Assembly (NCBI RefSeq): GCF_016593235.1
Contig: NZ_AP023065.1
Location: 620,001-684,000, forward strand
Reading direction: 5' to 3'
Origin: Nitratiruptor sp. YY09-18
GTDB lineage: Bacteria > Campylobacterota > Campylobacteria > Campylobacterales > Nitratiruptoraceae
DNA: 64,000 bases
How positions within the stretch are numbered: position 1 is the stretch's first letter; each line of letters starts with the position of its first letter. Position numbers and translations under genes: made by a program. Under the pieces are notes generated by a model that ran no database searches, was not told the origin of the DNA, and saw only the letters and a list, made by a program, of their open reading frames with translations. Below, in pieces: positions 37,193-39,672 of this stretch.

Positions 37193-37795
37193 TTGAGTAC
37201 GAAAGAGAATATTGAGTATATAAAACAGGAACTAAGCAGCGATGAGAAGCTTTTAGAGTCACTTCTGAAGGCCGAGCGCTTTTTGAAAAAGTATAAAAAA
37301 CCACTACTTGCTGTAGTGATCATAGCAATAGTCGGTATTGTAGGTTATAGCGGTTATGAGTGGAAAAAAGAGTATGATTTGAGTGAAGCAAACAAAATAT
37401 ATGAGCATCTCTTAGCAAATCCAAACGATTTGCAATCTTTAGTCAAACTAAAAGAGAAGTCTCCAAAACTTTGGGCACTCTATCTCTATAGTCAAGCTGC
37501 AAAACAAAAGGATATAAAGGCTCTCCAGGCTCTTAGCAAGATAGATGACCCAATCATCAGCGATCTAGCGAGTTATCACCTTGCTGCTGCAAAAGCTAAG
37601 AGAGAAGATATCCATAACTATACGCTCTCTCACGAGATTCTCAAAGATTTCGCACTCCTTGATGAAGCGTATCTACTCTTTAAAGAGGGTAAAATCTCCC
37701 AAGCAAAACAGCGCCTTGCGCAAGTGCAGGATGAGAAAGTGAAGGGATTGTATGTGAAACTATTCAACCACTACGGGATAAAGGTAAATAAATGA
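37193..37795 (+). CDS. YfgM-like single-pass membrane protein
   Basis: The 200-residue protein has a short charged N-terminus, a membrane helix at about 36-54 (LLAVVIIAIVGIVGYSGY), and a helical repeat region resembling degenerate tetratricopeptide repeats (about 65-200). That is the topology of YfgM, a partner of SecYEG and periplasmic chaperones. The next gene encodes a beta-propeller-like lipoprotein, the same order as E. coli yfgM-bamB, which strengthens the call. I prefer TTG 37193, preceded by AAAGGTGGAG, to TTG 37175, which has no ribosome site. Confidence 0.6.
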   Translation: MSTKENIEYIKQELSSDEKLLESLLKAERFLKKYKKPLLAVVIIAIVGIVGYSGYEWKKEYDLSEANKIYEHLLANPNDLQSLVKLKEKSPKLWALYLYSQAAKQKDIKALQALSKIDDPIISDLASYHLAAAKAKREDIHNYTLSHEILKDFALLDEAYLLFKEGKISQAKQRLAQVQDEKVKGLYVKLFNHYGIKVNK

Positions 37796-38811
37796 AAAAA
37801 GTAGTAATTTTATTACTTACTGCACTTCTTTTTTTAGGATGTAGCAACAAACGCTATTTTGAGCCGCAAGAGGTAGCTGGGTATGTAGATTTTGACGGGA
37901 CGCTTCCTGCAAAAATCGTGGATGTATTACGCGATGGAGCAACGCTAGACAATGGGCAGTTTATCTCAAGAGATGGTCTTGAAGATTATAAATTTCCACA
38001 AAATTTCATCTTCTTGCATAAATCTGGTGGATACTATATCGCAACAAGCAAGTGTGGCGAACTCCAAGTTGTAGATACTAAGAGTAAAAAACTTGTATTT
38101 GATAAGAAGTTTGATATGAAGACACCTGTTGCAGCATCTATCAAAGGCAACTACCTCGCGCTTGTTATGAGTGATAATACACTCATGCTCTATGACTTGT
38201 CATCTCAAAAAGTGGTGTATAGTTCTAAGCAAAAACCTGCAATTGCGGTAGATACAAAAGTCGCAAATCCCTTCTTTCTTGATTCTTTAGTGATTTTCCC
38301 TACGCTTGATGGAAAGCTTGTGGTAGTTGATCCGCGAAGCGCAAAAGAGGTGCGCAATATCGTAGTAGGAAGTGCAGAGCATTTCAATAATATTATTTTT
38401 TTAAATGTCATTGACGAAAAACTCATCGCAGCTACTCCAAACAGAATCGTCTCAATAAATCCGTCATTTATGAATTCACTTGATGTGGATTTAAGTGATG
38501 TGCTTTATGTCAAAGAGAGAGTCTACCTCCTAACAAAAGATGGACGCATTATCCTCACTGACCCAGAACTCAATCCTCTCAAACAGCGTAAGTTCCCATT
38601 TGCCCACTTTACTGGTGCTATTTATGGAGAGTATATCTATGTCATCGAAAAGGGTGGATATCTCTTAGCATTGGATAAGGATCTCAGAGCTAGCAACATC
38701 TTCTCTTTTGCTTCCACATTTGGAATCGGACAAGAAATAGATGAATATATTTTTACTTCCAAAGACAAAGTCTTCTACGCAGACAAATTCTTTAAACTCA
38801 ACAAACTATGA
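37792..38811 (+). CDS. BamB-like beta-propeller lipoprotein
   Basis: The 339-residue protein begins with a lipoprotein signal (LLTALLFLGC, lipidated Cys17). The rest shows repeated strand units with patterns such as GGYYIATSKCGELQVVDTKSKKLVFD, GNYLALVMSDNTLMLYD, DGKLVVVDPRS and GGYLLALDKDL, consistent with a PQQ- or WD-type propeller. BamB is the propeller lipoprotein of outer-membrane protein assembly. The assignment rests on architecture and the YfgM-BamB gene order, not on close similarity. It overlaps both neighbours by 4 bases. Confidence 0.6.
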   Translation: MKKVVILLLTALLFLGCSNKRYFEPQEVAGYVDFDGTLPAKIVDVLRDGATLDNGQFISRDGLEDYKFPQNFIFLHKSGGYYIATSKCGELQVVDTKSKKLVFDKKFDMKTPVAASIKGNYLALVMSDNTLMLYDLSSQKVVYSSKQKPAIAVDTKVANPFFLDSLVIFPTLDGKLVVVDPRSAKEVRNIVVGSAEHFNNIIFLNVIDEKLIAATPNRIVSINPSFMNSLDVDLSDVLYVKERVYLLTKDGRIILTDPELNPLKQRKFPFAHFTGAIYGEYIYVIEKGGYLLALDKDLRASNIFSFASTFGIGQEIDEYIFTSKDKVFYADKFFKLNKL

Positions 38812-39074
38812 GCCAGTGCAAAGAGTTTGGAAAAGAGTATGAGGCAGTTGATCCCAAGAATCTTGGGATCAAAAAACGCATAACTCTCTGTCACAAAGAT
38901 GGTCAATGGATTGTTGTGCTCAAGCGCAAGAGCAGGGTATTGCAAAAGGATGCAAAAGAGCTGGTAGAGGCAATGAAAGGTAAAAGAGTGACAATCTATA
39001 TCGATGCACCTCTCTGTTCAAAAGCAAAAAAGCTATTTGAAGATGCTGGTTGGAGAGTCAATGCTCTTATGTGA
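38808..39074 (+). CDS. Small soluble protein of unknown function
   Basis: The 88-residue protein is basic and soluble, with three cysteines (residues 4, 28 and 70). It could form a small alpha-beta fold: KRITLCHKDGQWIVVLKRKSRVL suggests a beta hairpin, and AKELVEAMKGKRVTIYIDAPLCSKAKKLFEDAGWRV suggests a helix-strand-helix. The ATG overlaps the propeller gene, and coaX starts 14 bases before its stop. I do not recognise it. Confidence 0.65.
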   Translation: MSQCKEFGKEYEAVDPKNLGIKKRITLCHKDGQWIVVLKRKSRVLQKDAKELVEAMKGKRVTIYIDAPLCSKAKKLFEDAGWRVNALM

Positions 39075-39672
39075 TATTGGAAATAGTGGTGCGAAATTTT
39101 TTGATGGAGTGCGAGTCTGGAAAGAGAGTCTCCTAGGACTTGAAAAATATAGAAATAGACAGGTGTGCTATGTAAATGTAAACCTCAGGGCACACGCAAT
39201 TATCAAAAATTTTGCCAAATGGGTCGATATTGCTCCACATGCAGAACTCGAAAGTGATTATGAGGGACTAGGGGTAGATAGGAAAGTTTTGTGCTCCTAT
39301 TTTACTGATGGTGTGATAGTCGATGCTGGCAGTGCAATAACAGTCGATATAATGGAGCAGGGAAAGCATTTAGGTGGCTATATATATCCTGGAATCAAAG
39401 CTATGCACAAAGCCTATACATCTATTTCTAAGGCTCTAGATAAAGAGCCAGAGTTTCTGCCACCCAAAAAGATTGCGCGTAATACCGCACAAGCAATAGG
39501 ATATGGTGTTTTGGCTCCATTGCTATGTGATATAAAAAGTTGGAACAAAAGAGTCTATATCACAGGAGGAAGCGGCAAGATACTCCGGCACTTTCTTCGC
39601 AACGCTACCTATGACAGACTCTATCTCTTTAAAGCCATGAAAAGTATTGTACAAAGGAAAAAACTATGTTAA
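39061..39672 (+). CDS. coaX: Type III pantothenate kinase
   Basis: CoaX phosphorylates pantothenate in coenzyme A synthesis. The 203-residue protein has the ASKHA-fold signatures DIGNSGAK (5-12, with Asp5), GVDR (71-74), DAGSAITVD (88-96) and GGYIYPGI (105-112). It is shorter than the 250-residue norm, as is usual in Campylobacterota. The ATG at 39061 puts DIGNSG at the expected N-terminal position; upstream in-frame codons lie within the previous gene. Confidence 0.92.
   Translation: MLLCDIGNSGAKFFDGVRVWKESLLGLEKYRNRQVCYVNVNLRAHAIIKNFAKWVDIAPHAELESDYEGLGVDRKVLCSYFTDGVIVDAGSAITVDIMEQGKHLGGYIYPGIKAMHKAYTSISKALDKEPEFLPPKKIARNTAQAIGYGVLAPLLCDIKSWNKRVYITGGSGKILRHFLRNATYDRLYLFKAMKSIVQRKKLC

Follow-up and report, generated by a model that had tools for sequence, protein, structure and literature searches.

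Candidate YfgM-BamB gene pair in Nitratiruptor sp. YY09-18, and its conservation in the Campylobacterales

In Escherichia coli K-12, yfgM is followed after 10 bp by bamB. BamB (YfgL; PF13360 and TIGR03300; structures 4imm, E. coli 3p1l and Pseudomonas aeruginosa 4hdj) is an eight-bladed propeller lipoprotein of the β-barrel assembly machinery (BAM), and YfgM (PF09976; E. coli b2513; 8zht chain B) is a protein of about 200 amino acids with an N-terminal membrane helix and a tetratricopeptide repeat (TPR)-like domain. Both proteins assist the passage of E. coli outer-membrane proteins to and into the outer membrane. Here we analysed two overlapping genes that lie in the same order in a 64,000-nucleotide stretch of the genome of Nitratiruptor sp. 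YY09-18 (contig NZ_AP023065.1, positions 620,001 to 684,000), referred to below as the window. The best reading is that the two genes are divergent homologues of their E. coli counterparts, passed on by vertical descent within the Campylobacterales, and as a pair they are most likely orthologous to E. coli yfgM-bamB.

The available text of Anwari et al. (2012) concludes that BamB is absent from the Epsilonproteobacteria, records five weak hits to BamB in a set of 37 genomes from this group, and presents a model in which BamB was added to an ancestral BamA-BamD complex after the delta and epsilon lineages had branched off (PMC3359395). For Helicobacter pylori, the portion of Webb et al. (2017) available to us reports no BamB, BamC or BamE, describes a BamA-BamD complex of 440 kDa, and allows for further BAM components (PMC5727368). 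The first-pass annotation of the locus had remarked that Campylobacterota are not generally credited with a BamB, in agreement with what is accessible of these two articles. BamB never occurs in a 2025 review on quality control of the envelope in Campylobacterota, where YfgM appears just in the E. coli part and the reference list, and no paper naming BamB or YfgM in Campylobacterota was found in the open-access literature searched; among the titles listed for BamB in this phylum were papers on microbiomes and natural products.

The gene pair and its conservation

The two genes and their junction are arranged as follows (positions are those of the window).

37193–37795, + strand: YfgM-like inner-membrane protein of 200 amino acids, TTG start, with a TPR_21 match, a predicted membrane helix and a TPR-like domain
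37792–38811, + strand: BamB-like lipoprotein, 339-amino-acid precursor, ATG start, with a PQQ_2 match, lipobox Cys17 and a predicted closed eight-bladed β-propeller
37792–37795, + strand: ATGA overlap of start and stop codons, read from the sequence; probable translational coupling

The first-pass annotation had described a single-pass TPR-like membrane protein gene followed, with a 4-base overlap, by a propeller-like lipoprotein gene. Both reading frames are intact (TTG at 37193 to the stop at 37795, and ATG at 37792 to the stop at 38811) and share the ATGA, as described. A Shine-Dalgarno-like AAGGTGGAG lies just 5' of the TTG at 37193, and the N-terminus MSxKEN is found in most relatives of the YfgM-like protein. 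The resemblance of the two products to YfgM and BamB is supported by Pfam matches over the cut-off for each: TPR_21 (PF09976) scores 31.6 bits (cut-off 25.5) on the 200-amino-acid protein, and PQQ_2 (PF13360, described in Pfam as "Outer membrane protein assembly factor BamB") scores 32.7 bits (cut-off 27.6) on the lipoprotein. In the 1.76-Mb genome each of these families has one match at E ≤ 0.001, and the matches are the two adjoining genes; by our own arithmetic, assuming about 1,800 genes, accidental adjacency with the right order and strand would be expected about once in 3,600. The genome also encodes BamA, an Omp85 protein with five POTRA stretches that lies away from the gene pair, and BamD, a YfiO/BamD lipoprotein. 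A second Omp85 frame of 579 amino acids (G000:C1:179442-180275, − strand) is possibly TamA-like.

Genome samples of 200 and 397 genomes, as far as listed all Campylobacterales, were used to follow the pair. Relatives of the BamB-like lipoprotein were found in 198 of the 200 genomes at E ≤ 0.001, within this one order. Among the matches listed, identity to the window lipoprotein is 65–67% within the genus, 50–55% within the family and about 30–49% within the order; it thus falls with kinship, which fits vertical descent. Among named contigs, the closest relative is on one of Nitratiruptor, at 74% identity. One listed match, in genome G011, carries an in-frame stop. A YfgM-like frame lies directly upstream in 50 of 50 loci, made up of the 30 best matches and 20 chosen across genera out of the 198 matching genomes (spacing −74 to +16 bp, negative values being overlaps). 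The same holds for 7 of 7 further loci from two families not covered by the 50 (f5 and f6) and one more genus, with a spacing of −100 to +9 bp; in both sets the spacing is counted from each frame's first start codon. The order of E. coli yfgM-bamB claimed for the window was confirmed against E. coli K-12 and is kept at all 57 loci checked, which cover all 12 families sampled with spacings of −100 to +16 bp. On named genome contigs, which overlap in part with the sampled genomes, the YfgM-like gene lies within 100 bp in 74 of 80; among the remaining six, four have it at 283–1308 bp on the same strand and two contigs start inside the gene.

The BamB-like gene is nearly universal in the Campylobacterales and can be lost. 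It is missing from two of the 200 genomes (G081 and G138), an absence that counts against the BamB reading. By the family profiles, G081 is without both genes; a weak N-terminal match there (E 0.009) was rejected as a different lipoprotein in a Tol-Pal-like locus (frames as read). G138 keeps the YfgM-like gene and has no BamB-like match at E 0.01. A tyrosine recombinase-like frame, recognised by reading, stands in place of the propeller there (L146 2101-2925), between the YfgM-like gene and a small open reading frame (ORF).

The propeller lipoprotein

The lipoprotein signal of the BamB-like protein ends in the lipobox FLGC17, and C17 is shared by every sequence in the BamB-like alignments of 38 and 65 members. 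We generated an AlphaFold2 model from the 65-sequence alignment (mean predicted local distance difference test score [pLDDT] 92.2, predicted template modelling score [pTM] 0.86), which contains 32 strands. These comprise a strand at residues 30–32, seven four-stranded blades between residues 42 and 306, and three C-terminal strands between residues 320 and 335. Blade 8 of the model consists of the three C-terminal strands and one N-terminal strand, giving a predicted closed eight-bladed propeller. Blade 8 of P. aeruginosa BamB is closed likewise by an N-terminal strand, according to the available text of its structural description (PMC3506653). The first-pass annotation had proposed an AlphaFold comparison with BamB and named a fold unlike an eight-bladed propeller as evidence to the contrary; the predicted fold is an eight-bladed propeller.

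Comparison of the model with the PDB by Foldseek placed BamB structures at ranks 1–14, the top match being 4imm from Moraxella catarrhalis (E 3.4e-14, template modelling score 0.64). In VIA-align, the best BamB row reaches a Z score of 24.3 (root mean square deviation [rmsd] 3.7, 313 aligned), pairing residues 13–338 of the model with residues 24–392 of BamB, and the best other protein is the WD40 domain of Sif2 at rank 40 (Z 21.5, rmsd 3.5, 292 aligned). The lead of BamB is thus 2.8 Z units among the 971 chains aligned, with some BamB rows lower, down to about 20.5. The predicted fold therefore places the lipoprotein well as a BamB-like propeller. The likeness to BamB extends to a lipoprotein nature, collinearity over nearly the whole chain, a position directly downstream of a yfgM-like gene, and a genome that holds BamA and BamD.

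Several observations weigh against the BamB reading. In Foldseek the first other protein, a designed propeller at rank 15, follows closely (E 1.7e-12), and designed eight-bladed and WD40 propellers score near BamB in both Foldseek and VIA-align; identity to BamB in the VIA structural alignments is 8–15%. PQQ_2 is matched by just 17 of the 38 relatives of the lipoprotein at E 0.01, and the NCBI BamB equivalog TIGR03300 gives 14.9 bits against a cut-off of 285.2. A profile of the 38 relatives, compared with 177,635 PDB sequences, has Moraxella BamB as its best match (E 3.2e-5). This is the sole significant BamB; the other BamB chains (E 0.04 to 1.4) rank behind the PQQ-repeat protein 3hxj (E 4.6e-5), designed propellers and Utp21. 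We take 3hxj to be from an archaeon. Aligned directly with E. coli BamB, the window protein is identical at 20% of 155 residues (E 0.010, one comparison), and the family profiles match the single E. coli BamB and YfgM sequences weakly (probability 9.7 and 33); the pairwise and single-sequence profile comparisons with E. coli BamB and YfgM were set aside as too weak to decide. Sequence by itself would therefore place the protein as a PQQ-type propeller with one BamB as best match, and BamB is not told apart from other PQQ-type propellers in this way. The remote BamB homologue proposed by the first-pass annotation is partly supported: gene order and both resemblances hold and the predicted fold agrees, but the sequence alone is not BamB-specific and the BamA-docking residues of E. 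coli BamB are not conserved.

These scores bear on the possibility that the protein is a propeller lipoprotein of other origin, a generic PQQ- or WD40-like scaffold outside BAM that happens to lie beside a TPR membrane protein, with the likeness to yfgM-bamB arising by convergence. Many propeller families score well, as Sif2 and the designed eight-bladed proteins illustrate, sequence scores fail to part BamB from 3hxj, and the tryptophan motifs and docking residues of BamB described below are absent or different. Against this, the best BamB rows exceed the best other propeller, the genome's sole TPR_21 and PQQ_2 matches adjoin in the E. coli order, and the pair is kept across the order; we regard another origin as unlikely. 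The PQQ-repeat propellers (3hxj and the quinoprotein dehydrogenases) share the PQQ-type sequence signal, and quinoprotein dehydrogenases have eight blades. To our knowledge, PQQ-repeat propellers are not lipoproteins beside YfgM. Neither 3hxj nor any PQQ dehydrogenase appears among the 50 rows listed in Foldseek or VIA-align, which does not imply exclusion. A reading as a quinoprotein enzyme was dropped, given the lipoprotein signal, the rows listed without such a dehydrogenase, and BamB as the best rows.

The BamB proteins of E. coli and P. aeruginosa have conserved tryptophan-docking motifs between blades, as stated in the accessible part of the structural study (PMC3506653). These motifs are absent from the window protein, which holds no tryptophan at all; 23 of the 38 and 49 of the 65 aligned members likewise lack tryptophan, and the maximum in any member is three. 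In the available text of two reports, L173, L175 and R176 together with D227 and D229 (mature numbering) are the BamA-contact residues of E. coli BamB (PMC3506653, PMC3489874). They correspond to L192, L194, R195, D246 and D248 of the precursor, within the loops that connect blade 3 to blade 4 and blade 4 to blade 5. By our own blade-by-blade alignment, which for the first loop agrees with the HMMER alignment to Moraxella BamB, these places hold A152, D154 and T155, and N199 and I201. The lack of both features also speaks against BamB.

The two loops, which span residues 147–160 and 192–202 of the window protein, carry motifs of their own. The blade 3-4 loop reads A152-V-D-T-K-V-A-N-P160 here and mostly A-x-[DN]-[ST]-[RK]-[IV]-A-x-P in the family, with the proline in 38 of 38 members, and the blade 4-5 loop holds F198-N-N200, with N200 in 38 of 38. 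Both are conserved above the other non-strand residues, to a degree reached by 50 of 20,000 shuffles with 38 rows and by 307 of 20,000 with the closer set of 65 rows. We count this conservation as a hint only, because circular shifts of the pattern give the same value in 45 and 86 of 316 cases and conservation is higher yet in the loop between blades 6 and 7. With this modest support, which is not proof, the alignments hint that the same propeller face may be used with other residues.

Comparison of these loops also bears on a changed partner, in which a true BamB descendant would have left BamA to serve as a periplasmic scaffold for YfgM/PpiD and Sec or for a different envelope machine. Such a change would suit a gene that keeps its place next to the YfgM-like gene, with bamA elsewhere in the source genome, the replacement of the BamA-contact residues by family-specific motifs, and a gastric Helicobacter-type copy with a long charged C-terminal tail. 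However, the counterparts of the BamA-binding loops belong to the conserved loops (with the modest statistics above), and position +2 of the lipobox is Ser or Gly in 29 of the 33 and 59 of the 62 members with a recognised lipobox pattern (of the 38 and 65, respectively). Under the E. coli rules, Ser or Gly at +2 after the lipobox Cys leads to outer-membrane sorting. A changed partner appears improbable. We consider homology of the propeller with BamB probable, and homology together with a working place in BAM reasonably likely.

The YfgM-like partner and the neighbouring genes

The AlphaFold2 model of the YfgM-like protein (pLDDT 92.1, pTM 0.71) has a single membrane helix near the N-terminus and a domain of helical repeats; the TPR-like domain is presumably periplasmic. 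It resembles YfgM in its length, its membrane helix, its TPR-like domain and its position upstream of the BamB-like gene. The top Foldseek match is YfgM itself (8zht chain B, from the PpiD-YfgM complex) with probability 1.00, but with an E value of 0.16. Other comparisons count against a YfgM identity: TPR_21 is matched by 29 of 38 relatives at E 0.01, the VIA-align score of YfgM (Z 9.6, rmsd 4.6, 138 aligned) is tied with that of generic TPR proteins (10.1) and not above it, and the pairwise match to E. coli YfgM spans the membrane helix alone, with no similarity past it. Pfam, architecture and position, rather than fold, thus identify the protein as YfgM-like. A PpiD-type frame of 496 amino acids with an N-terminal membrane segment is present in the genome and adjoins ftsA (translation as read).

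PF09976 matches 269 of the 397 genomes at E 0.001 and exceeds its cut-off in 116 of them. This survey was rejected as a count of YfgM, given that many of the listed matches are other TPR proteins in frames of about 740–830 amino acids. TPR_21 also matches, often over the cut-off, a widespread protein of this size in the Campylobacterales. We guess that it is possibly the flagellar protein PflA; a PflA/PflB structure is a weak Foldseek match of the YfgM-like model.

Downstream of the BamB-like gene, the window has a small ORF followed by coaX where E. coli has der.

38808–39074, + strand: ORF of 88 amino acids from the ORF list, no family assigned, overlapping the BamB-like gene by 4 bases
39004–39672, + strand: type III pantothenate kinase (coaX); the frame 39061–39672 scores 56.3 bits with Pan_kinase; exact start not settled

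The 88-amino-acid ORF has no Pfam family over the cut-off and no NCBIfam match. A similar ORF of 108 amino acids lies near the YfgM-like gene of G138, the genome from which the BamB-like gene is gone, and has, judged by eye, an APLCSKAK stretch in common with it; the two may form a small family. In some relatives of the lipoprotein, C-terminal extensions of about 70–80 amino acids past the propeller were seen, at L104 2977-4218 and L106 2974-4215 (Hydrogenimonas) and at L019 1282-2505 (− strand). The source genome also holds a second, weak match to the BamB-like profile, covering 66 positions (E 5e-4) of a 338-amino-acid frame (G000:C1:1682240-1682437, − strand).

The Helicobacter case and implications

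The available text on H. pylori contains one further result that speaks against a BamB in this group: co-immunoprecipitation with BamA gave just BamD and one other candidate, from an analysis of the gel regions at about 100 kDa and about 26 kDa (PMC5727368). In a gastric Helicobacter-type genome, recognised by 36 matches to the Helicobacter outer-membrane protein family, the BamB-like frame is 555 amino acids long (L145 2674-4341), with a long Lys/Glu-rich C-terminal tail and a mass of about 61 kDa without its signal. Its neighbours are a YfgM-like gene on one side and coaX on the other, and greA- and dut-like frames (as read) lie upstream. A homologue of about 61 kDa would be missed in the co-immunoprecipitation, because only the two gel regions were analysed. 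By gene order, we take the H. pylori counterparts of this pair to be HP0863 and HP0864. HP0863 is listed as a "hypothetical protein" in a sequence-variant table (PMC4079918) and among the type IV effector candidates computed by a predictor based on the C-terminus (PMC3915618). For HP0863 as the likely counterpart, the reading as a lipoprotein propeller makes the effector candidacy doubtful.

That BamB and YfgM of the usual kind have already been recognised here, leaving no gap in the literature, would agree with the PQQ_2 match over the cut-off and with the five weak hits of the earlier survey, but carries only a slight chance in view of the absence of BamB from H. pylori stated in the accessible text of Webb et al. 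and of its absence from the 2025 review. The best reading of the pair is that it is an overlooked, divergent YfgM-BamB in a group reported without BamB.

By analogy with the E. coli proteins, the YfgM-like protein would join the PpiD homologue at the Sec translocon and receive outer-membrane proteins as they emerge, while the lipidated eight-bladed propeller would be anchored in the outer membrane's inner leaflet. With its 3-4 and 4-5 loops the propeller may dock on a BamA POTRA domain and, once docked, may help BAM to accept and fold substrates, so that these would be handed over from Sec-YfgM-PpiD to BAM. We infer outer-membrane sorting, BamA binding, Sec association and the function of the pair from this analogy.

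We tentatively suggest, at somewhat less than an even chance, that both BamB and its gene pairing with YfgM are older than the separation of Campylobacterota from Proteobacteria. The "two-subunit" BAM of H. pylori and other Campylobacterales would then actually be BamA-BamB-BamD, with a BamB too diverged, including the charged tail in gastric Helicobacter, for profile searches and for co-immunoprecipitation from part of a gel, and docking through a lineage-specific interface. If true, a near-universal BamB-like lipoprotein beside a YfgM-like gene would move the origin of BamB back. It would also provide a candidate third BAM subunit in a phylum with major pathogens, where the H. pylori complex has so far been described, in the available text, as BamA-BamD (PMC5727368).
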